From assembly GCA_016806145.1 (NCBI GenBank), contig CP063167.1, positions 616,501 to 680,500 on the forward strand: a stretch of DNA of 64,000 bases. Direction: 5' to 3'. Position numbers and translations under genes: made by a program. The notes beneath the pieces are model-generated. The model saw only the letters and a list, made by a program, of their open reading frames with translations. It was not told the origin of the DNA and made no database searches. The DNA is from Variovorax paradoxus (GTDB lineage: Bacteria; Pseudomonadota; Gammaproteobacteria; Burkholderiales; Burkholderiaceae_C). The stretch's first letter is position 1. Each line of letters begins with the position of its first letter. Shown in pieces: positions 4,577 to 36,061 of the stretch.

Positions 4577-4583
4577 GGACGGT

Positions 4584-4907: not shown

Positions 4908-4911
4908 GGTC

Positions 4912-11644: not shown

Positions 11645-11681
11645 GGTGTGGATCCGTCCATCGGGGGGAAGATCAAATATT

Positions 11682-11699
11682 AATCCGTCTGGACAGCAT
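11682..11699. promoter_or_regulatory. operator site A (CCGTCCGGACGG-type palindrome)
   Basis: The sequence AATCCGTCT-GGACAGCAT is an imperfect inverted repeat flanked by ATATT and ATATATAATT. It lies 38 bases upstream of the oxidoreductase start and 65 bases before the divergent Lrp gene. It matches the three other sites at 20711, 27812 and 35966 and is probably bound by the same regulator. It may act on both divergent genes. Confidence 0.65.
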
Positions 11700-11763
11700 A
11701 TATAATTGCGATCCATGCGGTGTTGGTGACAACCCGGCATGTTTCATTCCGGAGATCGCCGCC

Positions 11764-13678: not shown

Positions 13679-13693
13679 CGGGGGTCTCCTTCT

Positions 13694-14458: not shown

Positions 14459-16242
14459 GCCGCGCTCCCCAGATAGGCCTGCTGCACGCGCGGGTCGTCG
14501 CGCACCGCCTGCGCCTCGCCCTCGGCGATCTTCTGGCCGAACTGCATCACGACCAGGCGGTCGGCGATGTCCATGATGAATTCCATGTCGTGATCCACGA
14601 TGAGCACGGTCACGCCCTCGCCGCGCAGCTGCTTGAGCAGCGCGGCCAGGGTCTTCTTCTCCTGGTGCCGCAGGCCGGCCGCGGGCTCGTCGAGCAGCAG
14701 CAGCTGCGGGCGGGCGCACAGGGCGCGCGCGATCTCCAGGATGCGCTGCTTGCCCAGCGGCAGGCTGGCGGCCGGCGCATCCGCGAGGTCCTCGAGGCCG
14801 CAGCGCCGCAACTGCGCCAGTGCCATGGCCTCGATCGCGGCTTCCTCGCGGCGATCGAGCCGCAGCATGGCGCGCAGCCAGCCGTCGCCGCCGAGCAGGT
14901 GGCAGCCGAGCGCCGCGTTGTCGCGCACGCTCATGTCGGCCACCAGCTTCACGTGCTGGAAGGTGCGCGCCACGCCGCGCGCGGCCACATGGCGCGCGCC
15001 GAGCGCGTCGATGCGCTGGCCGCGCAGGGTGATCGCGCCTGCGCTGGCGGGCAAGAGGCCGGTGATCAGGTTGAACAGCGTGCTCTTGCCCGCGCCGTTG
15101 GGCCCGAGCAGCGCGACGATCTCGCCGCCGCGCACCTCGAAGGAAACGCGGTTGACCGCGACCAGCCCGCCGAAGCGCTTCTCGGCCCCGTCGACGCGCA
15201 GCAGCACCTCGCCCGGCGCGGCGGCTGCGTGCTGCGCGGGCGCGCGCAGCTCCGCCGGCGCGCCGCGCAGCGCGGGCCGCCGCGGCACGGCAGCCGCGAA
15301 GCGCGTCCAGCGCGCGAGCAGCGGCCACAGCCCCGCGTTGGCGCGCGCCAGGATCAGCAGCATCAGCACGCCGAACACCGCCATCTCGAAGTTGCCCGAG
15401 CGGCCGAGCAGCGCCGGCAGCACGTCCTGCAGCACTTGCTTGAGCACCACCACCACGCCGGCGCCCGCGAGCGCGCCCCACAGCGCGCCCACGCCGCCCA
15501 TCACCGCCATGAACAGGTACTCGATGCTCATCTGCAGCCCGAAGGGCGTGGGATTGAGGAAGCGCTGCATGTAGACGTAGAGCCAGCCCGCCATGCCGGC
15601 CAGGCCCGCGGCAGTGCAGAACACCGCGACCTTGAGCCGGAACGCATGCGCGCCGAAGGCTTCGGGCAGGTCGGCGCCAGCGCGCAGCGCGCGCACCGCG
15701 CGGCCGAGCCGCGAATCGAGCAGGTTGCGCACCAGCCAGAAGGCCAGCGCGAAGCCCAGCGCGATCAGGCAGAACATCGAGCGCTCGGACGCGAAGTCGA
15801 AGCCGAACAGGTTCAGCGCAGGAATGCCCGCGAGGCCGTTGAAGCCACCCAGCGGCTCGATGATGCCCAGCCCGTAGTACACGACCACGCCCCAGGCCAG
15901 CGTGGCCAGCGACAGGTAATGACCGCCCATCGAGAGCGTGAGCGCGCCGATGCCAGCGGCCGACAGCGTGGCGAGCGCGACGCCGGCCAGCAGCGTGGCC
16001 CAGCCCGGCACGCCGTGCGCCACCGCGAGGTAGCCGGCCGCGTAGGCGCCGATGCCGACGAAGGCCGCCTGGCCGAAGGAGATCAGGCCCGCGAAGCCGG
16101 TCATCAGCGTGAGCCCGAGCGCCACCGTGGCGTAGAGCAGCACGAAGCTCGCGACCGTAACGTAGTAGCTCGACGCGAACATCGCCACGCCGGCGGCGGC
16201 CGCCACGGCGACGGCCGCGAGCACCCAGGAACGAAAGGTCAT
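14455..16242 (-). CDS. fused LivM permease-LivG ATPase of a HAAT ABC importer
   Basis: The 595-residue protein joins two parts in one chain. Residues 1 to about 310 are a LivM-type permease with several hydrophobic helices and the GFAGLISFGQAAFVGIGAY motif. After a linker rich in Ala, Pro and Arg, a LivG ATPase begins near 345, with GPNGAGKSTLFNLITG, LPLGKQRILEIARAL and LLLDEPAAGL. Such fusions are frequent in Comamonadaceae. I chose the ATG at 16242 since it overlaps livH by four bases and starts the first helix. It completes the importer together with LivH and LivF. Confidence 0.9.
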   Translation of the reverse strand: MTFRSWVLAAVAVAAAAGVAMFASSYYVTVASFVLLYATVALGLTLMTGFAGLISFGQAAFVGIGAYAAGYLAVAHGVPGWATLLAGVALATLSAAGIGALTLSMGGHYLSLATLAWGVVVYYGLGIIEPLGGFNGLAGIPALNLFGFDFASERSMFCLIALGFALAFWLVRNLLDSRLGRAVRALRAGADLPEAFGAHAFRLKVAVFCTAAGLAGMAGWLYVYMQRFLNPTPFGLQMSIEYLFMAVMGGVGALWGALAGAGVVVVLKQVLQDVLPALLGRSGNFEMAVFGVLMLLILARANAGLWPLLARWTRFAAAVPRRPALRGAPAELRAPAQHAAAAPGEVLLRVDGAEKRFGGLVAVNRVSFEVRGGEIVALLGPNGAGKSTLFNLITGLLPASAGAITLRGQRIDALGARHVAARGVARTFQHVKLVADMSVRDNAALGCHLLGGDGWLRAMLRLDRREEAAIEAMALAQLRRCGLEDLADAPAASLPLGKQRILEIARALCARPQLLLLDEPAAGLRHQEKKTLAALLKQLRGEGVTVLIVDHDMEFIMDIADRLVVMQFGQKIAEGEAQAVRDDPRVQQAYLGSAA

Positions 16243-17276
16243 GAGGCCTCCTGCGAATGCGGGTCGGCCAGCGAACGCCACAAGAGCAGCGGCACGATCA
16301 ATGCGAACACGATGATCTCCTTGGCGGCGCTCGCGCCGTAGGACGAGAAGGCCTCGAGCAGGCCCACCACGAGCGAGCCCGCGGCGGCGAGGACGTAGCC
16401 CGAGAGCCCGCCGACGATCGCGCCGACGAAGCCCTTGAGCGCGAGCAGGAAGCCCGAGTCGTAGTAGATGGTGGTGAACGGGCCGATCAGCACGCCCGAG
16501 ACCGCGCCGATGAAGGCGGCGATGGTCAGCGCCAGTTCGCCCGAGTGGTCGGGCGAGATGCCGACCAGCCGCGCGCCGTCGCGGCACACGGCGGTGGCGC
16601 GCAGCGCCTTGCCGCTCAACGTGTGGCCGAAGAAGGCGAAGAACACGGCCACCAGCACGGCGCTCGCCGCCACCACCGCCAGCGTCTGCGGCGCCATCGG
16701 CAGTCCCGCGAGCAGGCCGGCCGGCAGTTCGAAGCCCGGCAGCCGCGAGCCTTCGGGCCCGAACACGTACAGGCCCAGCGCCACCAGCACGAAGTGCAGT
16801 GCGATCGCCGCCACCAGCAGCACCAGCGGCGAGGCACTGCCCATCGGCCGGAACACGGTGCGGTAGATCAGCGGCCCCATCGCCGTGACCAGCGCCACGG
16901 CCGCGGCCGTCTGCATCCAGGCCGGCGAGCGCGCATCGACGCCGAACCAGGCGAAGGCGCAGGCCGCCAGCGGCAGCGCGCCGAGCAGCGCGAGCCGGCC
17001 GCCCAGCCCCGCGAGGTTGCGCTGCCGCAGGCGCTCGGCGGCTTCCATGCCGCAGGCCAGCAGGGCCACCGCCGCCACCGGCACCGCCAGCCCGGGCGCC
17101 TGGCCCTGCTGGAAGGCCGCGATGGTCAGCACGCTGGCACTGACGAATTCGCCCTGCGGGACGAACACGATGCGCGTGACGGTGAAGACCATCACGAGCG
17201 CCAGCGCCAGCAGCACGTAGACCGCGCCGCTCGCGAGGCCGTCCTGCACCAGCAGGCCGAAGATCTGCATGTCCAT
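16239..17276 (-). CDS. livH: branched-chain amino acid-type ABC permease (LivH)
   Basis: This is a 345-residue inner-membrane permease. The N-terminus FGLLVQDGLASGAVYVLLA and the VTRIVFVPQGEFVSASVLT segment are typical of LivH. The later LVGISPDHSGELALTIAAF part and the final hydrophobic helices are present. It is longer than most LivH proteins (about 290-310) because of extra hydrophobic sequence near residues 70-150. It lies 22 bases after the binding-protein gene and overlaps the fusion gene by four bases. Confidence 0.87.
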   Translation of the reverse strand: MDMQIFGLLVQDGLASGAVYVLLALALVMVFTVTRIVFVPQGEFVSASVLTIAAFQQGQAPGLAVPVAAVALLACGMEAAERLRQRNLAGLGGRLALLGALPLAACAFAWFGVDARSPAWMQTAAAVALVTAMGPLIYRTVFRPMGSASPLVLLVAAIALHFVLVALGLYVFGPEGSRLPGFELPAGLLAGLPMAPQTLAVVAASAVLVAVFFAFFGHTLSGKALRATAVCRDGARLVGISPDHSGELALTIAAFIGAVSGVLIGPFTTIYYDSGFLLALKGFVGAIVGGLSGYVLAAAGSLVVGLLEAFSSYGASAAKEIIVFALIVPLLLWRSLADPHSQEAS

Positions 17277-17298
17277 GATCTGTAGGGTCCGTCGCGCG

Positions 17299-18465
17299 TC
17301 AGGGGATGTACTTCCAGCCGCCCTTCTCGATGCGCACCATCACCCGGCTGCGCTGGTCCAGGCCGATGTGGTCCTTGGGCCCGAGGCTGTAGACGCCGTT
17401 GGTGGCATGCAGGTCCTGCGTGGACTCGATCGCGTCGCGCAGCGCCTTGCGGAATTCGGGCGTGCCGGGCTTGGCGCCCTTGAGCGCGCGCGGTGCCGCG
17501 TCCTGCAGGATCAGCGCCGCATCCCAGAGGTAGGCGGCGAAGGTGGAGCGCTGGCCCGCGTTGGGCAGCGCCTCGTACTTGCGGATGAATTCGAGCGAGG
17601 GCTTCTTCGCCGGATGGCTGTCGGGCAGTTGCTCGGCCACCAGCACCGGGCCGGCCGGCACGAAGGTGCCCTCGAGCTTGGCGCCGCCCACGCGCAGGAA
17701 GTCGTTGTTCGCCACGCCATGGGTCTGGTAGACCTTGCCGCGGTAGCCGCGGTCGAACAGCGTGGCCTGCGGCAGCACCGCGGGCGTGCCCGAGGCCGCG
17801 ATGAACACCGCGTCGGGCTGCGAGGCCAGCAGCTTGAGCACCTGACCGGTGACCGAGGCGTCGGTGCGCGTGTAGCGCTCGTTGGCCACCACCTCGATCT
17901 TGCGCAGCTCGGCGAACTTGCCGAACTCGCGCCACCAGCCTTCGCCGTAGGCGTCGTTGAAGCCGATGAAGGCCACGCGCTTCACGCCGTTGTCGGCCAT
18001 GTGCTTGATGATCGCGGTCGCCATGTGGGTGTCGCTCTGCGGCGTCTTGAAGGCCCAGCGCTTGCGGTCGTCCACCGGCTCGACGATGGCGCCCGAGCCC
18101 GCGAGGCTGATCATCGGCGTGCCGCTTTCCACCAGCACGTCGAGCACGGCCAGCGAGTTGGGCGTGAGGCTCGGCCCGATCAGCAGGTCGATCGCCGACT
18201 CGGAGATCAGCTTGCGCACGTTCTTGACCGTGGTCGAGGTGTCGGACGCGTCGTCGAGCAGGATGTAGTTGATCTTCTCGCCGCCCGCGGTGGCGGGCAG
18301 CACCGACACCGTGCGCTGCTGGGTCACGCCCACCGAGGCCGCGGGCCCGGTGGCCGAGACCACCACGCCCACGTTGATGTCGGCCCGCGCGCCCGAAAGC
18401 GCCGCGAAGCACAGTGCCGCGCCGAAGGCGGCGGCCCGGAAGCGGGCCTTTGCAATCTCGATCAT
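17299..18465 (-). CDS. Liv-type ABC transporter substrate-binding protein
   Basis: The 388-residue periplasmic protein belongs to the Peripla_BP_6 (LivK-like) family. A signal peptide ends after ALSGARA near residue 29. The mature protein starts DINVGVVVSATGPAASVG and has the usual GPSLTPNSLAVLDVLVESGTPMI region. It is the first gene of the importer and follows the reductase gene by 49 bases in the same operon. Sequence alone does not give the ligand; by context it could bind an aromatic acid or the amino acid feeding the pathway. Confidence 0.89.
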   Translation of the reverse strand: MIEIAKARFRAAAFGAALCFAALSGARADINVGVVVSATGPAASVGVTQQRTVSVLPATAGGEKINYILLDDASDTSTTVKNVRKLISESAIDLLIGPSLTPNSLAVLDVLVESGTPMISLAGSGAIVEPVDDRKRWAFKTPQSDTHMATAIIKHMADNGVKRVAFIGFNDAYGEGWWREFGKFAELRKIEVVANERYTRTDASVTGQVLKLLASQPDAVFIAASGTPAVLPQATLFDRGYRGKVYQTHGVANNDFLRVGGAKLEGTFVPAGPVLVAEQLPDSHPAKKPSLEFIRKYEALPNAGQRSTFAAYLWDAALILQDAAPRALKGAKPGTPEFRKALRDAIESTQDLHATNGVYSLGPKDHIGLDQRSRVMVRIEKGGWKYIP

Positions 18466-18514
18466 CGTTGTCTCCTTTTATGTGTCTGTCGTACCGAAAA
18501 AAATCGAAGGTTCG

Positions 18515-19543
18515 CTAGGTCTGCGCCACCGGCGTGAAGCTGTCGGCCGAGATCGCCGTGCTCTCCATGCCCAGCGCGATGCAGGTGTCGGAACAGGCCG
18601 CGACGAAGCCCGGCGAGCCGCCGATCACCGCGCGGGCGCCGGCCAGCGAGCCATGGTTCTCGCGCAGCCACGAGGGCGCGTACTGCTGCTTCATGCAGAA
18701 GCGGCTGCGCGCCTCGGTCACCAGCAGTGCATAGCGGAAGTTCGGATGCGCGCGGGCCAGCCCCGCGAGGCGGTCCATCAGCATCAGCTCGGCGTCGTCG
18801 CGCACCGAGAACAGCAGCGTCATCGGGCTGATGTCGCCATGCGCGAGCGCGTCCTCCATGATCGAGAGCACGGGCGCCAGGCCGGTGCCGCCCGCGAGGC
18901 CGAGAACGGTGCCCTCGCCTTCGGGCAGCCGGCAGGTGCCGTAGGGCCCGGTCACGCCGACGCTGTCGCCGGGCTGCAGCAGGTCGTGGATGTGGCCGCT
19001 GGCCGCGCCGCCCGGATGGCGCGCCACCAGCAGCTCGATCAGGCCCGTGCTCGAAGGCACGGTCGCGAGGCTGTAGCGCCGGTGCGGCGACAGGCCCGGC
19101 AGCGCGAGCTCGACGTAGGCGCCGGCCTGCGCCTCGAAGCGCAGCGGCTCGCTCGCCTGCAGCACCAGCCGCCGCACGCGCGGCGTGAGCGGGGTGTTGC
19201 ACAGCACGCGCGCCTCGAAGCTCTGCACGGCCGAGCCCTCGCCGCCCGGGATCGGCTGCACGGTGCGCAGATGCACCTCGGCGCTCAGCGGCCGCGCCTG
19301 GCACATCAGGCAGAAGCCCTCGGCGATCTCCTGGTCGGAGATCGCGAGGCCCAGCGACCAGCCGTTGTCGACCGTGCCCTGCGTGACGCGTGCCTTGCAC
19401 ATGCCGCAGGAGGCGCCGCGGCACTGGTGCGGCAGCACCACGCCTTGCGACAGCGCGGCGTCCAGGATGATGTCTCCCTCGGGGACGCCGAAGCGGATCG
19501 CCTCGTTGACGAGGATCGTTCGGCTCATGTTCATCGATGTCAT
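18515..19543 (-). CDS. [2Fe-2S]/FAD oxidoreductase, electron donor for the diiron oxygenase
   Basis: The 342-residue protein has an N-terminal plant-type ferredoxin with the ligands Cys41, Cys46, Cys49 and Cys81 (C-x4-C-x2-C-x31-C). The ferredoxin:NADP reductase part follows: RRYSLATVPS for FAD and LAGGTGLAPVLSIMEDAL for the nucleotide. This order (ferredoxin first) is that of the MmoC/BenC-type reductases and differs from PaaE, where the ferredoxin is at the C-terminus. It starts four bases after the diiron gene, so both are surely co-translated, and it should pass electrons from NAD(P)H to that protein. Confidence 0.88.
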   Translation of the reverse strand: MTSMNMSRTILVNEAIRFGVPEGDIILDAALSQGVVLPHQCRGASCGMCKARVTQGTVDNGWSLGLAISDQEIAEGFCLMCQARPLSAEVHLRTVQPIPGGEGSAVQSFEARVLCNTPLTPRVRRLVLQASEPLRFEAQAGAYVELALPGLSPHRRYSLATVPSSTGLIELLVARHPGGAASGHIHDLLQPGDSVGVTGPYGTCRLPEGEGTVLGLAGGTGLAPVLSIMEDALAHGDISPMTLLFSVRDDAELMLMDRLAGLARAHPNFRYALLVTEARSRFCMKQQYAPSWLRENHGSLAGARAVIGGSPGFVAACSDTCIALGMESTAISADSFTPVAQT

Positions 19544-19547
19544 GCGC

Positions 19548-20657
19548 CTAGAAGATCGGGATCACCTTCTCGGGATCGAACACCACCTCCTTGCCCTCGA
19601 TGCCGACTTCGGGCAGCGCGGGGAATTCGATGCCGTAGGGATCGAGGTTGGCCTTCATGCGCAGCACGGCCGTCTTCCAGTTGGCCTTGCGTTCGTCGAG
19701 CGTGAGGATGCCCAGGCCGGCGCTGCGCGCGACCTCGTCGATCTGGCGCTGCGCGGGAATGAAGGTGGGCGGCAGCTTCCAGAACTGCTCGGGCGGCTCG
19801 TGCAGGATCCCTGAGAGGAACACGAAGCCCGCGCGCAGCTGGATGCTGATCATCTGCTTGTCTTCCTCGGTGAGCACCGGCAGCAGCTTCTGCAGCACCG
19901 CCAGGCAGATGCCCAGGTGGCGGCCCTCGTCCTGGCCGATGCGCTTGAAGGCTTCCTTGAACACCGGGATGGTGGTGCGCTGGTACATGCCGTGGAACAG
20001 CGTGCTCGAGGCCACCTCGCCGAACAGGAAGGAGGTGAACAGGATCGCGAGCGGGTACTTGTCGACGCCGTTCTTGAAGCCGGTCCAGTAGCGCGAGCCG
20101 TTGTAGTAGAGCCACTCGATGTTGTTGCGTGCGAGATGCCCGAGCGGCGTCTCGGGCACGTAGCCGAGCGGGCCGCCGGGCGTGAGGCGCTTGATGGCGC
20201 GGCCGCAGACTTCCTCGTGGTTCATCTCGTCGCGCACGACCGAGAAGAAGCACTTGCGCACCGGGTCCTCTTCCTTGCTCTCGTAGGTGTGGATCATGGC
20301 GCGCGCGAAGACCGACGGCCCCGAGCCGTCGAACACCGCGAGCAGCGAGAACCAGTAGGCCATGGCGTAGCGCTGGTCGAGGCTGTAGTCCTCCACGCGC
20401 AACGTGTCCCAGGCCAGCGTGTGCGGCGACCAGCCCGGATCGCGCGCGGCGTCGTAGATGTCGTAGAGCTTGGGCGTCTCCACAGGCCACTCGAGCGGAA
20501 AGATGTTGGGCCCGTCGATGCCGGGCGCGGCCTTGATCTCGGCGAGCAGGGTCTGTGGGTCGGGCATGGCGAGCACCTGCTCGGGCGGCGAGGTCAGCGC
20601 GCGCGCGAGCGCGGCGGTGTCCTGGGCGTTGTCCAGGTGGGTGGGGGACGGGTTCAT
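19548..20657 (-). CDS. ferritin-like diiron oxygenase, single subunit, unknown substrate
   Basis: This is a 369-residue soluble protein with the metal pattern of carboxylate-bridged diiron enzymes. E144-x2-H147 (VRDEMNHEEV), E214 (LFGEVASS) and E244-x2-H247 (GQDEGRHLGI) are in order and at spacings like those of R2, MMO and AurF; I could not fix the first-helix ligand (Asp110 is a candidate). It is much shorter than BoxB (~470) and not clearly PaaA. The reductase gene follows after four bases, and the operon also carries an importer. Neighbouring CoA ligase, PaaG-like and PaaN-like genes make epoxidation or hydroxylation of an aryl-CoA the best guess. An AurF-like N-oxygenase or another diiron activity cannot be excluded. 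Confidence 0.8.
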   Translation of the reverse strand: MNPSPTHLDNAQDTAALARALTSPPEQVLAMPDPQTLLAEIKAAPGIDGPNIFPLEWPVETPKLYDIYDAARDPGWSPHTLAWDTLRVEDYSLDQRYAMAYWFSLLAVFDGSGPSVFARAMIHTYESKEEDPVRKCFFSVVRDEMNHEEVCGRAIKRLTPGGPLGYVPETPLGHLARNNIEWLYYNGSRYWTGFKNGVDKYPLAILFTSFLFGEVASSTLFHGMYQRTTIPVFKEAFKRIGQDEGRHLGICLAVLQKLLPVLTEEDKQMISIQLRAGFVFLSGILHEPPEQFWKLPPTFIPAQRQIDEVARSAGLGILTLDERKANWKTAVLRMKANLDPYGIEFPALPEVGIEGKEVVFDPEKVIPIF

Positions 20658-20710
20658 CGGGAATCTCTCCTTGTCATGTGTTCGGATGGGAGGGGTGGTG
20701 GATAATTGAT

Positions 20711-20728
20711 TAGCCTTCCAGACGGCAT
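20711..20728. promoter_or_regulatory. operator site B (CCGTCCGGACGG-type palindrome)
   Basis: TAGCCTTCC-AGACGGCAT is flanked by AATTGAT on one side and ATCAATTG on the other. It sits directly after the stop of the CoA transferase gene (20730) and 54 bases upstream of the diiron oxygenase start (20657). It is therefore placed to control the oxygenase-reductase-importer unit separately from the seven-gene operon upstream. Confidence 0.68.
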
Positions 20729-20729
20729 A

Positions 20730-21950
20730 TCAATTGGCAAAGGAAGAACGCGCATGCGGAATCGCGCCCGCGCGGGTGGCTTCGGCGAGCTCGGCTTCGC
20801 CAAGGCCGGCGGCGCGCAGCACCTCGAGGCTGTGCGCGCCGAAGGCCGGCGCCGCGGTGCGGTAGCTGGCCGGCGTGCGCGACAGCGACACGGCCGAGGC
20901 CACGCCCATCTGGCCGCCGGCCTCGACGAAGCGTTCGCGGTGCAGCGCATGCGGATGGGTGCGCACGCCGCCGACGTCGAGCACCGGGCCGCAAGGCACG
21001 CCCGCGCGCATCAGTTCCCGTGCGATGGCCTCGCCGTCGCGCGTGGCCAGCAGCGCCTCGAGCTCGGCCTTGAGCGCCGCCGCGTTCGCGAGCCGCTCGC
21101 TGTTGTGCGCGAAGCGCGGATCGTCGGCCAGTTCGGCGCGGCCCAGCAGCGCAACCAGGCGGCGGAACTGGCCGTCGTTGCCTACGGCGATGAACACATT
21201 GCAGCTGCGCGTGGCGAAGGCATCGTAGGGACAGATGTTGGGATGCGCGTTGCCGCTACGCCCCGCGACGCGGCCCGACAGGAAGTGGTTGGGCAGGTGC
21301 GGGTGCATCAGCGAGACGCCGGTGTCGAACAGCGTGGCCTCGACCGACTGGCCCCGGCCCGACAGCTCGCGCTCGCGCAGCGCCATCAGGATGCCGATGA
21401 CCGCGTGCAGCCCGGTCGCGATGTCGATCACCGGGATGCCCATGCGCAGCGGCGCGCCGCCGCGTTCGCCGTTGACCGACATCAGCCCGGTCATGGCCTG
21501 CGCGACCGCGTCGTAGCCCGGCAGGCCGCCCAGCGGGCCGTCGGCGCCGAAGCCGCTGACGCGGCAGTGCACCAGGCGCGGGAAGCGTTCGCGCAGGAAG
21601 TCCTCGTAGCCGATGCCCCAGCGCTCGAGCGTGCCGGGCTTGAAGTTCTCGACCAGCACGTCGGCGTCCGCCAGCAGGCGCAGCAGCAACGCGCGGCCCT
21701 CGGGCAGCGAGAGGTCGAGCGCGACGCCCTGCTTGTTGCGGTTGACGCCGAGGAAGTACGACGCCGCACCGTCGAGGAAGGGCGGGCCCCAGTCGCGCGT
21801 CTCGTCGCCCTGCGGCGGCTCGACCTTGATCACCTGCGCGCCATGGTCGGCCAGCATCTGGGTGCAGAAGGGACCGCCGAGTACGCGCGACAGGTCGATG
21901 ACGCGCAGTCCGGCCAGCGCGCCCGGCGTGGTTTGCGTGGTGTGCGTCAT
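20730..21950 (-). CDS. CaiB/BaiF-family CoA transferase
   Basis: The 406-residue protein is a class III CoA transferase. DLSRVLGGPFCTQMLADHGAQVIKVEPP begins near residue 18 (family opening, quoted in part as DLSRVLGGPF and ADHGAQVIKVE). NRNKQGVALDL follows, and GYDAVAQAMTGLMSVNG carries the expected catalytic Asp. Such enzymes move CoA between carboxylic acids, often with succinyl-CoA as donor. The start at 21950 overlaps the ligase gene by four bases. It is the last gene of the seven-gene operon; it may activate the substrate in place of, or beside, the ligase. Confidence 0.9.
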   Translation of the reverse strand: MTHTTQTTPGALAGLRVIDLSRVLGGPFCTQMLADHGAQVIKVEPPQGDETRDWGPPFLDGAASYFLGVNRNKQGVALDLSLPEGRALLLRLLADADVLVENFKPGTLERWGIGYEDFLRERFPRLVHCRVSGFGADGPLGGLPGYDAVAQAMTGLMSVNGERGGAPLRMGIPVIDIATGLHAVIGILMALRERELSGRGQSVEATLFDTGVSLMHPHLPNHFLSGRVAGRSGNAHPNICPYDAFATRSCNVFIAVGNDGQFRRLVALLGRAELADDPRFAHNSERLANAAALKAELEALLATRDGEAIARELMRAGVPCGPVLDVGGVRTHPHALHRERFVEAGGQMGVASAVSLSRTPASYRTAAPAFGAHSLEVLRAAGLGEAELAEATRAGAIPHARSSFAN

Positions 21951-23308
21951 GCCGGGCTGGCCTCCGAGGCGGTGAGCCGCAGCACGCGCGTGGCCTTGGC
22001 CTCGTAGCGCGGCAGCGCGCCCTCGTCGTGGCAGCGCACCTCGCACGTGAGGCCCAGCCGGGCGTTGAGCCGCGCGCGCACCTCGCGCGCGAGGTCGTCG
22101 CCCGTGCAGGCCGTGCCGGGCACGCGCTCCACGGCCACCTCCATGTGGTCGAGCACGCTGCGCTCGCTGTCGATATAGATCTGCCAGGCATCCTTGGCCA
22201 GGCCCTCGACGCCAGCGATCACGTCCTCGATCTGCGAGGGATAGACCAGCACGCCGCGCACCTTGAGCATGTCGTCCGAGCGGCCGATGATGCGGCCGAT
22301 GCGCGCATAGGCATGGCGGCCGCAGGAGCAGCGGTAGGGCTGGGCCGAGCGGCGCACCAGGTCGCGCGTGCGCCAGCGCAGCACCGGCGAGGCCTCCTTG
22401 TCGAGCGTGGTGAAGACGATCTCGCCGACCTCGCCCGGCGCCACCGGGCGCAGGGTCTGCGGGTCGAGGATCTCGCTGAGCACGCTGTCGTCGTTGACCA
22501 GGTGCATCTCGTCGTCGCCGTGCGAATGCGGGCAGGAAACGCCGAGCACCGGCCCGCCGGCCTCGGTGGTGCCGTAGATGTTGTGCGCCAGGAAGCCCTC
22601 GGGCATCAGCGCCTCCATCTCGCTGCGGAAGGTGGTCGACACCGACTGGCCGCCGAACAGCCCCACGCGCAGCGCCCAGTCGCGGCGCGGGTCGATGCCG
22701 GCCTTGCGCGCCTGCTGGATCAGCGTCATCAGCCACAGCGGCGACATGGTCGTGACCGTGTGGCGGTGGTCGCGCAGCCACTGCACCATCAGCTCGCCGC
22801 GGCCCGGTCCCACCGGGAAGTTGACCGCGCCATAGGCCTTGAGCGCCTCGTCCATCGAGCTGCCGCCGATCCACAGGCCATAGCCGTAACCCTGGTAGAC
22901 GCGGTCGCCCGCGCGCACGCCCACCGTGCGGTAGATGCGCGCGAGCTGGCGCACCAGCGTGTCTTCCCAGTCCTTCTGCGTGAAACCGAACAGCACCGGC
23001 AGGCCGGTGGTGCCCGAGGTCGCGCAGAAGCGCACCACCTGCTCGAGCGGCACCGTGAGCAGCGGGTACGGATAGAGCGCGCGCAGGTGGCTCTTCTCGA
23101 GCAGCGGCAGCGCCTGCAGCGCGGCACGGTCCTTCAGGTCGAACGGGGAGGCGCCAGCCGCCGTGAAATGCGCCCGCCACTGCGGCGACTCCGCGAGCCT
23201 GCGGCCGAGCGCGGCGAGCTTGGCGTCCTGGCGCGCCTGCAGCTCGTCGAGCGAGAGGAAATCGTCGGCGGCGTCGGCCGCGGCCTGCGCATTGCGGGAT
23301 TCGGTCAT
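21947..23308 (-). CDS. phenylacetate-CoA ligase-like AMP-forming ligase
   Basis: The 453-residue protein is of the PaaK type. It has the AMP-binding motif CATSGTTGLPVLFGFT, the middle YGTTEAGGPVLG region, and the C-terminal AMP-binding_C_2 part with RIIGRSDDMLKVRGVLVYPSQIEDV (marked here by GRSDDMLKVRGV). These enzymes join CoA to phenylacetate or related aryl acids with ATP. The start at 23308 gives MTESRNAQAAAD and follows GGAGACGCC. It lies 37 bases after the PaaN-like gene. The exact acid is unknown; it may be a substituted phenylacetate or another aromatic acid. Confidence 0.9.
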   Translation of the reverse strand: MTESRNAQAAADAADDFLSLDELQARQDAKLAALGRRLAESPQWRAHFTAAGASPFDLKDRAALQALPLLEKSHLRALYPYPLLTVPLEQVVRFCATSGTTGLPVLFGFTQKDWEDTLVRQLARIYRTVGVRAGDRVYQGYGYGLWIGGSSMDEALKAYGAVNFPVGPGRGELMVQWLRDHRHTVTTMSPLWLMTLIQQARKAGIDPRRDWALRVGLFGGQSVSTTFRSEMEALMPEGFLAHNIYGTTEAGGPVLGVSCPHSHGDDEMHLVNDDSVLSEILDPQTLRPVAPGEVGEIVFTTLDKEASPVLRWRTRDLVRRSAQPYRCSCGRHAYARIGRIIGRSDDMLKVRGVLVYPSQIEDVIAGVEGLAKDAWQIYIDSERSVLDHMEVAVERVPGTACTGDDLAREVRARLNARLGLTCEVRCHDEGALPRYEAKATRVLRLTASEASPA

Positions 23309-23345
23309 GGGGCGTCTCCTTTGTTCTTTGGCGGGCGGTCGCGCT

Positions 23346-24998
23346 TCAGGCGGCGAGGTAGCGGCGCGTCTGCAGCACGCGAAAGCGCGGCAGCACGAAG
23401 GCGGTGTCGCACAGCGCCGCATTGCCGGCCGCGTTGTGGCCGCTCACGTGCAGGTCGCTGAAGGCTGCCGACTGGTTCACCAGCACCGGGCCGGTCATGT
23501 CGAGCGTGAGGTGCACGCCGGCATCGGCGGCCGCGTTCTTCGCGCGGCGCACGAAGGCCTCGTCGCGCGAGTACACCGACCAGGTGATCGCACCGCGCGA
23601 GCGCGTGACCTCGTGCGCATGCCGCAGCGCCGCGTCGGCGTCCTCGGTCACGATCAGCAGGCTGATCGGGCCGAAGTGCTCGCGCGCGATGGTGTCCAGG
23701 GCTTCGGGCGGCACGGCGTAGAGGGCCGGGGTGCGCAGCACTGCGTCGGGCAGCTCGGGATGCGCGAGCCGGCGCGAGGCGAACACCGGCTCGCCGAGCG
23801 ATGCCGCCTCGACGGCGCGTGCCTCGGTGGCATCGCTCTGGATCGCGCCGAGCAATTCGATGGCGCGCACCGGATCGGCGACCAGCTTCGCCACCGCCGC
23901 GGCGAGGTCGGCCTTGAAATCCTCGACCGTCTTCGCCGCGCCGTCCTGCAGCCGGATGCCCGCGCGCGGCAGGTAGATGCTCTGCGGCGTGGTGCACATC
24001 TGGGCGCTGTAGAGGCTCAGCGTGAGCGCGAGGTTGCGCACCAGGCCGGCGTAGTCTCCGGTGCTCTCGATCAGCACCGCGTTGACGCCGGCCTTCTCGG
24101 TGAAGACATGGGCCTGGCGCGCATGGCTCTCGAGCCAGTCGCCGAACTCGGGGCCGCCCGTGAAGTCGATCAGCTTCACGCGCGCATCGAGCGCGAGTGC
24201 CTTGGTCTTGGGTGCGGCGCGCGTGTCGACCAGCAGCTGCACCACGTCGGCGTCGAGCCCCAGGCCCGCGAGCACCGTGCGCGCCGTGTCGACGCACAGC
24301 GCGAGCGGCAGCACGGCCGTGGGATGCGGCTTCACGACCACCGGGTTGCCCGTGACCAGGCTCGCGAACAGGCCCGGGTAGGAGTTCCAGGTCGGGAAGG
24401 TGGCGCAGCCGATCACGGCCGCGATGCCGCGCGGCAGGATCTCGAAAGTCTTCTCCACGCGCAGCGGCCGGCGCGCATCGGGCTTCTCCCACAGCACGCG
24501 CGCCGGATAGGCGCCCATCTCGCGCACGGCGATGGCCACGGCCTCGAGCGCGCGGTCCAGCGCATGCGCGGTGCCGGCCTGGAAGGCCATTGCGAACGGC
24601 TGGCCGCAGGCATGCATGCAGGCGAAGGCCATCTCGAAGGCACGCTGCTGCAGCGCCTCGAGGATCTCGAGCGCCACCGCGGCGCGCTCGGCCGCATCGA
24701 GCGCGGCCCAGGCCGGCGCCGCGGCTTCGGCGCGCGCGAGCACGGCATCGACCGGTTCGTCGGCATAGGCGGTGTCGAAGGGCACGCCGAAGGCGCTGCG
24801 CTCATCGCCGCGGATCGCGCCGTCGCGCCGCGTCCAGGCCGCGCGCACGGCGGCCTCGCCGGCTGCGCGCGAGCCGTCGGCGTAGACGGGATGCGTCGGA
24901 TCCTCGGGATAGGCGCTGTGGTAGCCGCGGCGGGCCACGGCGGCGATCGCATCGGCCAGGCGGCCGGCGTGTTTCAGTTGCAGGTCTTGAAGGGTCAT
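23346..24998 (-). CDS. paaN: PaaN-like aldehyde dehydrogenase (phenylacetate degradation protein PaaN family)
   Basis: This 550-residue protein belongs to the long aldehyde dehydrogenases annotated as PaaN. Its opening MTLQDLQLKHAGRLADAIAA, the GNPVVVKPHPTAVLPLAL segment, FTGGPEFGDWLES and a candidate catalytic Cys near residue 335 (SAQMCTTPQSIY) support this. In the classical pathway the ALDH half of PaaZ oxidises the semialdehyde formed on ring opening. Here the ALDH stands alone, and a separate MaoC hydratase is encoded at the start of the operon. It follows the thiolase-like gene by 6 bases. Action on a ring-cleavage semialdehyde-CoA is likely by context. Confidence 0.85.
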   Translation of the reverse strand: MTLQDLQLKHAGRLADAIAAVARRGYHSAYPEDPTHPVYADGSRAAGEAAVRAAWTRRDGAIRGDERSAFGVPFDTAYADEPVDAVLARAEAAAPAWAALDAAERAAVALEILEALQQRAFEMAFACMHACGQPFAMAFQAGTAHALDRALEAVAIAVREMGAYPARVLWEKPDARRPLRVEKTFEILPRGIAAVIGCATFPTWNSYPGLFASLVTGNPVVVKPHPTAVLPLALCVDTARTVLAGLGLDADVVQLLVDTRAAPKTKALALDARVKLIDFTGGPEFGDWLESHARQAHVFTEKAGVNAVLIESTGDYAGLVRNLALTLSLYSAQMCTTPQSIYLPRAGIRLQDGAAKTVEDFKADLAAAVAKLVADPVRAIELLGAIQSDATEARAVEAASLGEPVFASRRLAHPELPDAVLRTPALYAVPPEALDTIAREHFGPISLLIVTEDADAALRHAHEVTRSRGAITWSVYSRDEAFVRRAKNAAADAGVHLTLDMTGPVLVNQSAAFSDLHVSGHNAAGNAALCDTAFVLPRFRVLQTRRYLAA

Positions 24999-25004
24999 GG
25001 TGGG

Positions 25005-26162
25005 TCAGAGCGTGGCGGCGGTGCCGAAGATCGCGGTGCATTGGCTCGACATGTAGCCGCCCGGCGCATGGGCCAGCGCGAGCTCGGCGCCAGCCACCTG
25101 GCGCGCGCCGGCATCGCCGCGCAGTTGCACCACCGACTCGATCGCGGTGTAGATGCCGAACATGCCGGGGTGGCCGAGCGAGAGCCCGCCGCCGCTGGTG
25201 TTCATCGGGAAGTCGCCGCCCGGCGAGGCGCGGCCGCCATCGAGGAAGGCACCGCCCTCGCCCTTGGCGCAGAAGCCCGTGTCCTCGGCGAAGACGATCG
25301 GCATGATCGTGAAGGCGTCGTAGAACTGGACCACGTCGATGTCCTTCGGGCCCACGCCGGCCTGCGCATAGGCGGTGGCCGACGACACGCTGGCCGCGGT
25401 GCGCACCAGGTCCGGCATCTGCGCGATGCTGCGGTGCGTGGCTGCTTCGCCCACGCCGAGCAGGTAGACCGGCTTGCGCCGCAGTTGCGCGGCGCGCTCG
25501 GCCGAGACCACGACCAGCGCGCCGCCGCCATCGGTCACGAGGCAGCAGTCGCGCACGGTGAAGGGATGCGCCACCGGCCGCGCCGCGATCACGTCCTCGA
25601 TGCTCAGCGGCCCGGGATCGGGCGCATCGGTGTCGAGCCGCGCCCAGTCGCGCGCGCTCACCGCCACCTGCGCGAGCTGTTCGCGCGTGGTGCCGAACTC
25701 GTGCATGTGGCGCTGCGCGACCATCGCATAGGCCGCGAGCGGGCCCGGGTAGCCATAGGGCACTTCATAGGGGTTGGGTTCGGAATGGGTCGCGAACTGC
25801 CCGCCCGCGGATTTCTGCGTGCTGCCATAGGCGATCAGCGCCACCGAGCACAGGCCGGCCGCGATCGCGGCGCGCGCATGGTTGAGGTGCGCGAGGAAGG
25901 CGCCGCCGCCGACCTGGGTCGAATCGGTGTAGCGCGGGCGCAGGCCCAGGTATTCGCACAGGCTCAACGTCGGCATGAACAGCTGCAGCCCGGCCGCGAA
26001 CACGCCGTCGACATCGGCCAGCGAGAGGCCCGCGTCGTCGAGCGCGCGCACCGAGGCCAGCGCCATCGCGTCGAGCGGCGAGGACAGGGCCGGCATCGTC
26101 GCGAAGCCGGTGCTGCCGATGCCGGCGATCGCGGCCGCGCCGCGCAGATTTGCGGCCATCAT
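25005..26162 (-). CDS. thiolase-fold protein lacking the nucleophilic cysteine (SCP-x/Ltp2-like)
   Basis: The 385-residue protein has the thiolase fold of the lipid-transfer-protein branch. Where true thiolases have the reactive CAS motif, it has VGGGAF (84-89), so the acyl-accepting Cys is absent. Other parts remain: YDAF at 281-284, LSLGHPGMFG at 328-336 and Cys375 near the end. It overlaps the DUF35 gene by four bases (ATGA). Pairs of Cys-less thiolase plus DUF35 protein are known from actinobacterial steroid side-chain cleavage (Ltp2 with ChsH2), where they act as retro-aldolases. A similar aldol-lyase role is possible here, as is an inactive or accessory role. Confidence 0.82.
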   Translation of the reverse strand: MMAANLRGAAAIAGIGSTGFATMPALSSPLDAMALASVRALDDAGLSLADVDGVFAAGLQLFMPTLSLCEYLGLRPRYTDSTQVGGGAFLAHLNHARAAIAAGLCSVALIAYGSTQKSAGGQFATHSEPNPYEVPYGYPGPLAAYAMVAQRHMHEFGTTREQLAQVAVSARDWARLDTDAPDPGPLSIEDVIAARPVAHPFTVRDCCLVTDGGGALVVVSAERAAQLRRKPVYLLGVGEAATHRSIAQMPDLVRTAASVSSATAYAQAGVGPKDIDVVQFYDAFTIMPIVFAEDTGFCAKGEGGAFLDGGRASPGGDFPMNTSGGGLSLGHPGMFGIYTAIESVVQLRGDAGARQVAGAELALAHAPGGYMSSQCTAIFGTAATL

Positions 26163-26542
26163 GCGAGCGCTCCGAACACCACGCGGTGCGCGTCGTTCCA
26201 GGGCTCGATGCGCGCGGCCACGCGCAGGCCGATGCGCAGCGCGCCGGGCGCCGCATCGACCACCGTGGCCATCATGCGGAAGCCCTCGTCGAGATCGACC
26301 AGCGCGATGTTGAAGGCACCGTCGCGCCGCTGCACCTCGGTGCAGGCGTGGACTGTGCCCTCGCCGCGGCTGGTGCGCCATTCGAGTTCACTCGGCCGAC
26401 CGCCCGGTCCCACGGCCTGGGGCGGAAAGACTGCGCGGCCCGCGCCGTGGTCGAACTGGTAGACCAGCCGGCCTTCGGCGAGCGCGGCGAGGAACTGAGC
26501 GCGCGGCGAACGCGCGGCGTCGGGAGTGGAGGTCATGCCCAT
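26159..26542 (-). CDS. DUF35 OB-fold protein without the zinc-ribbon cysteines
   Basis: This is a 127-residue protein of the DUF35 family. The OB-fold part (EGTVHACTEVQRRDGAFNIALVDLDEG) is recognisable after residue 60. The N-terminal rubredoxin-like ribbon normally has four cysteines; here the same region reads YQFDHGAGRAVFPPQAVGPG and has none. DUF35 proteins pair with thiolase-fold partners. The gene ends inside the start of the Cys-less thiolase gene and starts 3 bases after the crotonase stop, so it is almost certainly a subunit of that protein. Confidence 0.82.
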   Translation of the reverse strand: MGMTSTPDAARSPRAQFLAALAEGRLVYQFDHGAGRAVFPPQAVGPGGRPSELEWRTSRGEGTVHACTEVQRRDGAFNIALVDLDEGFRMMATVVDAAPGALRIGLRVAARIEPWNDAHRVVFGALA

Positions 26543-26545
26543 CGC

Positions 26546-27328
26546 CTAGCGTCCGATGAAGCGCGGCTTGCGCTTCTGCTGGAAGGCGCCGATGCCTTCG
26601 ATGCCGTCGGGCCCGGCGAGCGCCTCGGCCTGCGCGATCGCCTCAAGCTCGAGCGTCTCCTCGAAGGAACGCGCGCACGACAGGATGCGCTTCGATGCGG
26701 CGAAAGCGGCGGTCGGGCCGCTCGCGATCTCGCGCGCCATCTGCAGCGCGATCTCGTCGAGCGCCTCGGCCGCCACGCTGCGGTTCACGAGCCCCATGGC
26801 CGCGGCTTCGCGTCCCGAGAACAGGCGGCCCAGGAAGATCAGCTCGGCCGCGCGGTGCGGCCCGACTCTTTCGCGCAGGTGATGGTGGCCGCCCGAATCG
26901 AGCACCGCGCCGATGTTGCGGAACGGGCTGCCGAGCAGCGCATCGTCGGCGACCAGCGCGATGTCGCAGGCCAGCGCGAGCCCGAAGCCGAAGCCCAGCG
27001 CGGGGCCCTGCACCGCGGCGATCGTCGGCACCGGGCAGTCGCGCACGGCGGCCAGCACCGGGTTGATCCGCTCGCGCAGGATCGCGAGCGTGTCGTCGGT
27101 GCCGGGATGCGTGTCCTTGAGGTCGCGGCCGGCGCAGAAGGCATGGCGCGTGCCGCGCACCAGCACGGCGCGCGCACCGGCCGACACGGCCTCGCCGAGC
27201 GCATCGGCGATCGCCGTCATCTCGTCGAGGCGCAGGCTGTTCTTCGCGGCGGGCCGGTCGATCGCGATCACAGCGAGCGACGACTCCAAGGTCAGGCGCA
27301 CTGCATCGGTGGAGGTGGCGCCGCTCAT
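26546..27328 (-). CDS. PaaG-like enoyl-CoA hydratase/isomerase
   Basis: The 260-residue crotonase-family protein has the oxyanion segments FCAGRDLKD (64-72) and ALGFGFGLALACD (110-122). The two acidic residues of true enoyl-CoA hydratases are absent: Gly116 occupies the first site, and the second region reads VLDSGGHHHL with Asp144. This matches PaaG, which uses an Asp in an IPD-GG context to isomerise ring-epoxide or enoyl-CoA compounds. An isomerase role in ring opening therefore fits better than simple hydration. The start at 27328 overlaps the MaoC gene by four bases. Confidence 0.85.
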   Translation of the reverse strand: MSGATSTDAVRLTLESSLAVIAIDRPAAKNSLRLDEMTAIADALGEAVSAGARAVLVRGTRHAFCAGRDLKDTHPGTDDTLAILRERINPVLAAVRDCPVPTIAAVQGPALGFGFGLALACDIALVADDALLGSPFRNIGAVLDSGGHHHLRERVGPHRAAELIFLGRLFSGREAAAMGLVNRSVAAEALDEIALQMAREIASGPTAAFAASKRILSCARSFEETLELEAIAQAEALAGPDGIEGIGAFQQKRKPRFIGR

Positions 27329-27801
27329 CGCGCAGCCCCCTCGAAGGCCATCAGGATGCGCAGCTCGCTGGCCATCAGAAGCAACCCGTTCTGGTTGTGG
27401 ACGTTCCACTGCAGCCGCAGCACGCCATCGATGCCGGGGCGCTTCACGGTCTTCTCGAGCACCGCGGCTTCCAGATGGATGGTGTCGCCGATGAAGGCCG
27501 GCGCGGTGAAGCGCAGCGCGTCGCTGCCGTAGTTCGCCACGATCGCCGGCGCCGCAGGCGGAATGCCGAGCCCGGCCGCATAGGCCAGCAGCATCAGGCC
27601 GGGCGCGATGCGCTGGCCGAAGCGCGTTCGCGCCGCATGGTGCGCGTCGGTGTGCAGCACGTACCAGTCGCCGGTCAGTGCGCACCACTGAACGATGTCC
27701 GCCTCGGTGAGGGTACGGCCGCGCGAGCGGAAGCGCGCGCCCTCCTCGATCCGGTCGAAGTGCTGCTCGAGAAATCCGCAGGTGCTGGTGATGTCGGTCA
27801 T
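27325..27801 (-). CDS. MaoC-type (R)-specific hydratase
   Basis: This 158-residue hotdog-fold protein has the catalytic pair Asp45 and His50 (TGDWYVLH), followed by RFGQRIAPGLMLL, as in R-specific enoyl-CoA hydratases. The same domain forms the C-terminal half of PaaZ, which hydrolyses oxepin-CoA. It is the first gene of the seven-gene operon; operator C lies 11 bases upstream of the start. Whether it acts as a ring hydrolase, or hydrates an enoyl-CoA for the thiolase-like protein, is open. Confidence 0.87.
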   Translation of the reverse strand: MTDITSTCGFLEQHFDRIEEGARFRSRGRTLTEADIVQWCALTGDWYVLHTDAHHAARTRFGQRIAPGLMLLAYAAGLGIPPAAPAIVANYGSDALRFTAPAFIGDTIHLEAAVLEKTVKRPGIDGVLRLQWNVHNQNGLLLMASELRILMAFEGAAR

Positions 27802-27811
27802 CGTCTTTATT

Positions 27812-27829
27812 TAACCTTCCGGACGGAAT
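27812..27829. promoter_or_regulatory. operator site C (CCGTCCGGACGG-type palindrome)
   Basis: TAACCTTCC-GGACGGAAT lies with TTTATT before it and ATAAATG after it. Eleven of the twelve core bases agree with the perfect palindrome CCGTCCGGACGG of site D. It overlaps the only plausible promoter region of the MaoC-to-CoA-transferase operon, so a bound repressor would block it. Confidence 0.7.
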
Positions 27830-27857
27830 ATAAATGAAGACGAAGACCCGGCGGCAG

Positions 27858-35861: not shown

Positions 35862-35965
35862 GTCGGCATCGCCCGCAAAAGAAAAATGGTTCGTTCGAAA
35901 CACCCGCGCCGCGCGCATGTTTCGTCCGCCCGCCCTGTACGCACCCGGGCGAAACAGCGAAATTT

Positions 35966-35983
35966 ATTCCGTCCGGACGGCCT
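35966..35983. promoter_or_regulatory. operator site D (perfect CCGTCCGGACGG palindrome)
   Basis: ATTCCGTCC-GGACGGCCT has a perfect 12-base core (35969-35980) with an AAATTT stretch on the left. It lies in the 200-base region between the TetR gene (start 35861) and the binding-protein gene (start 36062). It is the strongest of the four related sites, as expected for an autoregulated repressor. Confidence 0.72.
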
Positions 35984-36061
35984 ACTCTAACCGAGGCCTC
36001 GCGAGCTCGCGGCGGGGCCACTTCCTGGTCCTTTCGATCCACCCGCCCCACGGAGCCGCGC

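Follow-up and report, generated by a model that had tools for sequence, protein, structure and literature searches.

Genes of the cluster

In bacteria the known attack on the phenylacetate ring is carried out by an enzyme of several components. We describe here a gene cluster of Variovorax paradoxus in which a single ferritin-like diiron protein, which we call DiFe, is a candidate for this kind of step. The cluster lies in a 64,000-nucleotide stretch of the genome (assembly GCA_016806145.1, contig CP063167.1, positions 616,501 to 680,500; hereafter the window, to which all coordinates without a contig or locus name refer). The genome (9.44 Mb, 3 contigs) was searched with profiles from NCBIfam and Pfam. 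Between 18515 and 27801 there are nine genes on the minus strand, from MaoC down to a ferredoxin reductase:

27325..27801, minus strand: MaoC hydratase, like the hydratase half of PaaZ (proposed oxepin-CoA hydrolase); PF01575 80.0 bits, TIGR02278 87.7 bits over profile positions 523-653 of 664, best solved match PaaZ 6jql
26546..27328, minus strand: PaaG-like crotonase (proposed epoxide isomerase); PF00378 157.7 bits, TIGR02280 149.2 bits (below the cut-off of 345.15), PaaG-type Asp kept
26159..26542, minus strand: OB-fold protein of ChsH2-C/DUF35 type, partner of the thiolase-like protein; PF01796 51.3 bits
25005..26171, minus strand: thiolase-like protein, possibly a retro-aldolase; NF004811 539.7 bits (cut-off 421)
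23346..24998, minus strand: PaaN_2 aldehyde dehydrogenase; TIGR02288 624.7 bits (above the cut-off of 578.75)
21947..23311, minus strand: PaaK-like aryl-CoA ligase, divergent; TIGR02155 283.7 bits (below the cut-off of 646.3)
20730..21950, minus strand: class III CoA transferase; PF02515 424.8 bits
19548..20657, minus strand: DiFe, ferritin-like diiron protein, proposed arylacetyl-CoA epoxidase; invariant ligand-type residues, predicted R2lox/R2 fold, AurF Pfam score of 23.0 bits (below gathering)
18515..19543, minus strand: ferredoxin-domain reductase, BenC/MmoC-like, proposed electron donor; PF00111, PF00970 and PF00175, BenC 155.1 bits (below the cut-off)

A preliminary description of this DNA, made from its letters, had proposed a new aryl-CoA ring-opening set here. 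What stands of that proposal is a paa-like system with an unusual single diiron protein and reductase under one operator; the split PaaZ, as discussed below, is not new. The ligase, CoA transferase, MaoC, PaaN-like aldehyde dehydrogenase and reductase all lie on the minus strand where they had been placed, and the reductase does carry a ferredoxin domain (Fer2), besides FAD and NAD domains. To these genes we add the thiolase-like/OB-fold pair (25005-26542), a PaaR-like TetR repressor, a ferredoxin oxidoreductase, and paralogous paa and box systems elsewhere in the genome.

Sequence and predicted fold of DiFe

The two ExxH motifs and Glu214 that had first marked DiFe as a diiron protein are invariant in 47 aligned sequences (E144-xx-H147, E244-xx-H247 and E214, together with D110 and E126; these numbers count the initial Met, which is left off in the alignment, where numbering is one lower). 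The motifs (two ExxH plus further carboxylates) and a helical model of four-helix type indicate a ferritin-like diiron protein, in which these residues would bind the metal. The structural matches of the predicted model (VIA-align) are the R2-like ligand-binding oxidase (R2lox) and ribonucleotide reductase R2, from which DiFe differs in sharing only about 10% identity with them. Among the best 50 structural matches listed there is no BoxB, PaaA or AurF structure, which excludes nothing.

DiFe matched no NCBIfam family at E<=1e-3, so it reaches neither the PaaA model (TIGR02156, cut-off 280 bits) nor the BoxB model (TIGR03225, 499.1 bits). We also rejected DiFe as a homologue of PaaA, PaaC or BoxB on profile comparison, since hhalign gave probabilities of 0.30, 0.94 and 0.45 percent, respectively, with templates of two sequences each. 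Sequence searches of the PDB gave weak, chance-like matches, both with the single protein and with the DiFe profile (best hit a designed helix bundle, E 0.0005). The fold is predicted to be R2/R2lox-like, and DiFe is without profile similarity to PaaA, PaaC and BoxB. Ribonucleotide reductase families of Pfam were matched at E<=1 by 20 of the 47 aligned members, the window protein not among them.

AurF (PF11583), the family of the AurF/CmlI diiron N-oxygenases, is the nearest Pfam family to DiFe by sequence; it is precomputed on many DiFe homologues, and it and rubrerythrin are the Pfam families common to all 47 aligned members. This bears on another explanation, that DiFe is an AurF-type N-oxygenase, or some other diiron oxidase, using a substrate without CoA such as a free amine (an aminobenzoate or nitroaromatic that also needs aryl-CoA steps, for instance), and an AurF-like paralogue that matches the DiFe profile with a probability of 98.6 points the same way. 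The window protein, however, scores below the AurF gathering threshold (23.0 vs 29.6 bits), and the genomic setting of DiFe is aryl-CoA catabolism: its exclusion with a PaaA-family gene, and its PaaK, PaaI, PaaN, PaaG-like and PaaR-like neighbours in several phyla (both described below), indicate an aryl-CoA route. An N-oxygenase therefore seems improbable to us.

An AurF-like paralogue only distantly related to DiFe lies at L061:5657-6622 (corresponding to G000:C1:4007722-4008600), and similar weak matches occur in six other genomes, besides G005, among 60 relatives.

A regulon joined by a shared operator

A 24-base operator motif, built from three window sites (three of the five sites later found), occurs at up to three mismatches at only five places in the whole genome, all within 38 kb (C2:614699-652484), while the reversed-pattern control gave none. 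The shared operator of the preliminary description is therefore real, with two copies at the cluster (20710 and 27811), two more in the window and one to its left. The sites, and the genes flanking the cluster, are as follows:

27811..27834, plus strand: operator before the MaoC gene
20710..20733, plus strand: operator before the DiFe gene
11681..11704, plus strand: operator before the ferredoxin oxidoreductase gene
35961..35984, minus strand: operator between the TetR gene and a binding-protein gene, 3 mismatches
1.8 kb left of the window: fifth operator, 16 bases before an FMN-dependent dehydrogenase gene (PF01070 414.4 bits)
35274..35861, minus strand: PaaR-like TetR repressor; PF00440, PF17932
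36062..37183, plus strand: second importer substrate-binding protein, divergent from the TetR gene; open reading frame (ORF) with a match of 53% in L013 and 88% in G005
17299..18465, minus strand: importer substrate-binding protein; 63% identity to that of the canonical paa cluster
13694..17276, minus strand: liv-type importer (livH, livM-livG fusion, livF); ORFs read by eye
12269..13678, minus strand: GlcD-like FAD dehydrogenase (proposed D-2-hydroxyacid dehydrogenase), its start adjoining the end of livF; PF02913, PF01565, TIGR00387 319.7 bits (below the cut-off)
8135..11644, minus strand: protein of the indolepyruvate ferredoxin oxidoreductase family; NF009589 1662.3 bits (cut-off 816)

DiFe and the reductase belong to a regulon joined by this specific operator, and the regulon also includes the PaaR-like repressor, the indolepyruvate-type ferredoxin oxidoreductase and a 2-hydroxyacid dehydrogenase. 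A 12-base core of the operator (2 mismatches) was rejected as stand-alone evidence, with 6 sites found against 10.6 expected. Behind the FMN dehydrogenase gene, left of the window (L081:12688-16683), come a RidA-like gene, a transporter and a peptidase-like gene, all on its strand, as read by eye.

The TetR protein is PaaR-like by homology and by its PaaR-type operator: it shares 33% identity with the TetR that holds the PaaR position in the paa cluster of this genome, 96% with its counterpart in the sister species G005, and 55-64% with the TetR proteins heading four Burkholderiaceae clusters. It matched no PaaR model in NCBIfam, where its best match was SACE_7040 (86.9 bits, below the cut-off). 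In Burkholderia sp. S171 (L013), the core CCGTCCGGACGG stands before the TetR, MaoC and DiFe genes, and the site before DiFe is a perfect 20-base palindrome. Across the loci described below, the palindrome ACCGNNCGNNCGGT occurs within 300 bases upstream of DiFe, at up to one mismatch, in 25 of 41 usable loci (about 1.1 expected from other stretches of the same loci), and exactly in 8 of the 41 (0.03 expected); L042 and L053, cut at the contig start, were dropped from the counts, and the expected values still include both. The window's own four sites have 2-4 mismatches to ACCGNNCGNNCGGT, which presumably is the core of the PaaR motif known from Corynebacterium glutamicum. According to a review (PMC9493321), phenylacetyl-CoA is the ligand that releases PaaR in Burkholderia and Thermus.

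Canonical paa and box systems in the same genome

The preliminary description took the set to stand in place of PaaABCDE or BoxAB, and called for a search for a separate paaABCDE. In this genome the set replaces neither system, and we rejected that role since both are present. A canonical paa cluster elsewhere in the genome encodes PaaA (533.1 bits, the only TIGR02156 place in the genome) and, also over the NCBIfam cut-offs, a fused PaaZ (992.1 bits), PaaE, PaaC, PaaK and PaaI, with PaaG (337 bits, cut-off 345.15) and PaaY (312.6, cut-off 319.6) just under theirs; the search covered PaaA, PaaC, PaaE, PaaG, PaaI, PaaK, PaaY and PaaZ. BoxB is encoded at C1:110018 (884.6 bits). Since the paa and box oxygenases are separate in the genome, the window cluster is an addition, that is, a second system.

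DiFe orthologues are rare in the genus, being found in one of the 36 same-genus genomes searched (G005, 94%). G005 keeps the TetR, MaoC, crotonase, OB-fold, thiolase-like, ligase, DiFe, reductase, importer, FAD dehydrogenase and ferredoxin oxidoreductase genes; its ligase gene ends about 60 bases before the DiFe match, with neither PaaN nor CoA transferase between them. Four Burkholderiaceae clusters have, in order, TetR, MaoC, crotonase, OB-fold protein, thiolase-like protein, ligase, CoA transferase, DiFe and reductase, without PaaN; in one of them (L013) the reductase is followed by a ferredoxin oxidoreductase (a 59% identical copy) and a binding protein (53%). We therefore dropped PaaN as an essential part (missing from G005 and the four Burkholderiaceae clusters) and the CoA transferase as a core part (missing from G005).

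DiFe neighborhoods in other phyla

We examined 43 DiFe loci from a search for close relatives in genome contigs. A PaaR-like TetR gene adjoins DiFe in 25 of them and heads the cluster in four more (the Burkholderiaceae). PaaN-like aldehyde dehydrogenase genes lie near DiFe in nine loci (two of them, L031 and L038, divergent, and seven from Eremiobacterota/WPS-2), and PaaI-like genes in four (L040, L046, L050 and L053). For example, the gene order in L040 is PaaI-PaaK-DiFe, with a ligase (652.4 bits) over the phenylacetate-CoA ligase cut-off of 646.3; L054 has DiFe-PaaK, and L048 has PaaR-DiFe-crotonase. Loci lacking any paa-like neighbor include L023 and L037.

Among the 34 DiFe genomes, PaaA is over its cut-off in six, all betaproteobacteria, and 16 of the other 28 have weak matches only (36-90 bits). 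A PaaK-family ligase at E<=1e-80 is found in 29 of the 34 (over the cut-off in eight), and PaaN_2 is over its cut-off in 19. In these other phyla the pathway served by DiFe is apparently the ordinary one for phenylacetyl-CoA.

Exclusion with a PaaA-family gene in Obscuribacterales

The strongest evidence is a comparative pattern in Obscuribacterales, the order of Candidatus Obscuribacter, of which 53 genomes were sampled. DiFe is present in 28 of them, a PaaK-family ligase in 45 (none over the cut-off), and a PaaA-like gene of at least 115 bits in 19 (none over the cut-off), and only one genome (G099) has both DiFe and the PaaA-like gene (Fisher P=1.7e-7, genomes treated as independent). In G097 the PaaA-like gene is split over two contig ends; this genome was left outside the first Fisher test (P=4.0e-8 if it is counted) and was taken as PaaA-bearing in the ligase tree. 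In four of the 19 PaaA-like matches (G093, G094, G095 and G103) the matched stretch crosses a stop codon. The DiFe gene of G099, the sole genome of the 53 with both, is found at the start of a contig (C11:714-1757), which leaves room for mis-binning.

We read 15 paaK loci (seven from DiFe genomes, seven from PaaA genomes, and G099), in some of which small genes were uncalled. After paaK come an EthD-like gene, one or two crotonases and, where the contig reaches, a PaaG-like gene; in the PaaA genomes a PaaA-family gene stands in front of this operon (in L095 it rests on the profile search and the survey of ligase loci). That survey took in 45 ligase loci: paaK has a PaaA-family gene nearby in 12 of 13 loci with PaaA and not DiFe, in 0 of 26 with DiFe and not PaaA, and in 0 of five with neither. 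This divergent, single PaaA-family gene at the head of the paaK operon is found, in Obscuribacterales that lack DiFe, at L092:8084-8830 and at 11 further loci.

In a tree of the ligases (without one PaaK fragment, from G105) at least six changes between the DiFe and PaaA-family states are needed, and two groupings that join the states have support of 100/100 each: G112 (PaaA) with G078 (DiFe), and G127 (PaaA) with G128 and G068 (both DiFe). Exclusion together with repeated switches fits what functional displacement predicts, and this pattern supports a role for DiFe as a replacement of the PaaA-type oxygenase more than the window alone does.

The replacement pattern and the gene neighborhoods are what lead us to a function for DiFe: together with the reductase, it is likely to form a diiron oxygenase whose hydroxylase is one polypeptide and which epoxidises the ring of an arylacetyl-CoA; an unrelated protein of R2/AurF type would then take over the work of PaaABC(D)E.

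Several observations weigh against this reading. Without the ligase-tree result, the Fisher value is open to shared ancestry, and gene transfer can bend ligase trees. Six genomes with PaaK have neither DiFe nor a PaaA-like gene (or five, with the split gene of G097 taken into account). The PaaA-family gene that DiFe would displace is a divergent one (117-135 bits vs the cut-off of 280), so that its own function is assumed, and no PaaC-like gene was seen beside it in the loci read. At up to one mismatch the operator lies upstream of the paaK operon in only one of 26 DiFe genomes (0.49 expected). A reductase like that of the window is found in only six of the 43 DiFe loci (it adjoins DiFe in the four Burkholderiaceae, and lies 2.2 kb off in L021 and 7.7 kb off in L022); because linkage to the reductase is seen in so few loci and the CoA transferase is not core, the explanation is slightly weakened. 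The window ligase is far under true PaaK (283.7 vs 646.3 bits), and its substrate may not be an arylacetate. BoxB is over its cut-off in 14 of the 34 DiFe genomes, and many genomes outside the betaproteobacteria are metagenome-assembled, of unstated completeness.

In addition, 17 of the order's 28 DiFe genomes have a second, weaker class of PaaA/PaaC-family matches (60-82 bits), away from paaK, that could be the oxygenase. DiFe would then be auxiliary or protective, and in Obscuribacterales that carry it the epoxidation would fall to this pair; Pfam PF05138 does cover both members of one pair. The weak matches are, however, missing from 10 of the 28 DiFe genomes and do not lie near paaK, they also occur in genomes that have the PaaA-family gene (G110, G112, G114 and G115), and the window cluster has no such gene, which makes an auxiliary DiFe improbable.

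Tandem proteins of the PaaA/PaaC family unlinked to paaK were seen at L062:3771-5530 and L063:3336-4917, two of them confirmed as PF05138. The operator also precedes the paaK operon in one of 13 genomes of the PaaA group (0.17 expected). We rejected the idea that DiFe and paaK form one regulon in this order, the operator being seen at one of the 26 paaK operons.

Other steps of the proposed pathway

The crotonase has its PaaG-type catalytic Asp at residue 151 of the longest ORF (144 counted from the MSGAT start), and by our reading other residues stand at the two hydratase Glu positions known from the rat enzyme. The PaaG-like crotonase with Asp144 and without both Glu residues is thus confirmed from sequence and alignment. 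Its best solved matches are 6slb and 3hrx, labelled enoyl-CoA hydratase (the latter presumably the Thermus PaaG), with a 1,2-epoxyphenylacetyl-CoA isomerase chain (4fzw_C) lower down; its TIGR02280 score of 149.2 bits compares with 337 for the canonical cluster's own PaaG, which is also under the cut-off. These crotonases bear on whether DiFe instead hydroxylates an aryl-CoA, on the ring or the side chain and with no epoxidation, the downstream steps then being unlike paa. The fold group spans many oxidations, and the window ligase and thiolase-like/OB-fold pair are indeed unlike paa counterparts, but PaaG-type crotonases, sensible for an epoxide, are found with DiFe not only in the window and the orthologous clusters but also in L048 and, where Obscuribacterales carry DiFe, in their paaK operons, and we consider hydroxylation distinctly unlikely.

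MaoC and the PaaN-like aldehyde dehydrogenase had been taken as the two halves of PaaZ in a new arrangement. Both are present, but the arrangement is not new, as a separate aldehyde dehydrogenase in place of the fused PaaZ is already described in section 11 of PMC9007349, and PaaN is not core. As in that split system (a PacL-type aldehyde dehydrogenase with a separate hydrolase), the two functions lie on separate genes here; the window's hydrolase candidate is MaoC-like, whereas the candidate in that section belongs to another (3S, crotonase-type) hydratase family.

The closest solved structure to the thiolase-like protein is 4u4e, followed by 9myr, the lipid-transfer protein 6ok1 (which we take to be Ltp2) and the benzoylsuccinyl-CoA thiolase subunit 7pxp. 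Read by eye, it has no Cys at the usual nucleophile position, and therefore it may form, with its OB-fold partner, a retro-aldolase of the Ltp2/ChsH2 kind.

As for the substrate, the importer's binding protein and its counterpart in the canonical paa cluster share 63% identity, which leads us to expect import of an acid similar to phenylacetate. The FMN dehydrogenase in the regulon, the GlcD-like dehydrogenase in the DiFe transcription unit, and the ferredoxin oxidoreductase of arylpyruvate type suggest that the feedstock is L- and D-aryl-lactate. A literature search gave nothing on aryl-lactate or arylpyruvate feeding of this cluster, and the accessible text of PMC9007349 has no passage on a ferredoxin oxidoreductase.

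The cluster might instead act on thioesters of benzoyl-CoA type or with a longer chain (mandelate via benzoylformate, or arylpropanoates), and not on arylacetyl-CoA. Mandelate dehydrogenases belong to the FMN-dependent dehydrogenase family, the ligase is distant from PaaK, and the thiolase-like/OB-fold pair is of a side-chain-cleaving type. On the other side stand the identity of the binding protein, the PaaR-like regulator and operator, the place of the oxidoreductase in the indolepyruvate family, and the BoxB already encoded in the same genome. On balance such substrates are unlikely, and an arylacetyl-CoA made from aryl-lactate or arylpyruvate is probably what DiFe serves in the window.

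Proposed pathway

From the observed genes, families, motifs and operator, and from the patterns of co-occurrence and exclusion, we infer a pathway in which each reaction, each substrate and the repressor ligand would be as follows. Aryl-lactate would be oxidised to arylpyruvate by the FMN or the GlcD-like FAD dehydrogenase, and arylpyruvate converted to arylacetyl-CoA by the ferredoxin oxidoreductase; the liv transporter would import free arylacetate, with the PaaK-like ligase or the CoA transferase activating it. DiFe and the reductase would use O2 to form the ring epoxide of arylacetyl-CoA, the PaaG-like crotonase would turn the epoxide into the oxepin, MaoC would hydrolyse it, an aldehyde dehydrogenase (PaaN in the window) would oxidise the semialdehyde, and the thiolase-like/OB-fold pair would cleave the chain. 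The PaaR-like TetR protein would repress at the shared palindrome until released by arylacetyl-CoA. In the window's lineage DiFe would thus have been recruited to a second, paralogous pathway.

Taken whole, the picture is more tentative, with a chance of being right a little short of even: DiFe would be an apparently undescribed family of single-polypeptide diiron aryl-CoA epoxidases on an R2/R2lox/AurF-type fold, swapped several times with a PaaA-type oxygenase in one order, present in five or more phyla as labelled in the records (Pseudomonadota, Melainabacteria/Cyanobacteriota, Vulcanimicrobiota, Myxococcota and Tectimicrobiota), and recruited in Burkholderiaceae and the window's genus to a PaaR-like-controlled ring-opening pathway from aryl-lactate or arylpyruvate through arylacetyl-CoA.

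Relation to known systems

The cluster shares with the paa pathway a ligase, a PaaG-like crotonase, a PaaZ-like MaoC, a PaaN aldehyde dehydrogenase, a PaaR-like repressor and a related importer binding protein. It differs in DiFe, which has no profile similarity to PaaA or PaaC, in its ligase and crotonase, which score below the PaaK and PaaG cut-offs, and in the PaaB/PaaC/PaaD-like partners of the oxygenase, none of which was seen among the genes read at 12269-27801. With BoxAB, the benzoyl-CoA 2,3-epoxidase, it would have in common a reductase and one hydroxylase polypeptide acting on an aryl-CoA, whereas DiFe has no profile similarity to BoxB, the window reductase is BenC/MmoC-like (20.2 bits to BoxA), and BoxB is encoded separately. 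We rate DiFe as an oxygenase family new to a known kind of pathway, the aerobic aryl-CoA epoxide pathway. In a literature search, with subscription papers mostly outside its reach, we recognised no published description of a single-subunit or other alternative replacement of PaaABC.

In the accessible text of a 2026 survey (PMC13186573), PaaA and PaaC are proposed as robust markers of the phenylacetate pathway; the survey kept 825 ligase-encoding proteomes, selected in part for having these two proteins, and finds both in every one of them, while nine Cupriavidus proteomes have ligase copies and an incomplete epoxidation module. If DiFe does carry out the epoxidation, entire lineages go unnoticed with a PaaA/PaaC marker, and an unrelated diiron scaffold would be a further origin of ring epoxidation on CoA thioesters. 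Having only one subunit, such an enzyme would also lend itself more readily to study and engineering than the multi-part PaaABCE complex.

Other features of the window

A second aromatic route is suggested on the minus strand at 2421-5976, where a 4-hydroxyphenylpyruvate dioxygenase (TIGR01263, 296.7 bits, cut-off 277) is accompanied by a homogentisate dioxygenase-like protein far under its cut-off (65.4 vs 510.75) and, by eye, a fumarylacetoacetase-like gene; the 24-base motif search found no operator of the DiFe regulon there. Also on the minus strand and by eye, a long Gly/Ala-rich ORF with an autotransporter-barrel-like C-terminal stretch (28347-31892) lies between the operon and its regulator, and livM and livG of the importer are apparently fused in one frame (14455-16245).

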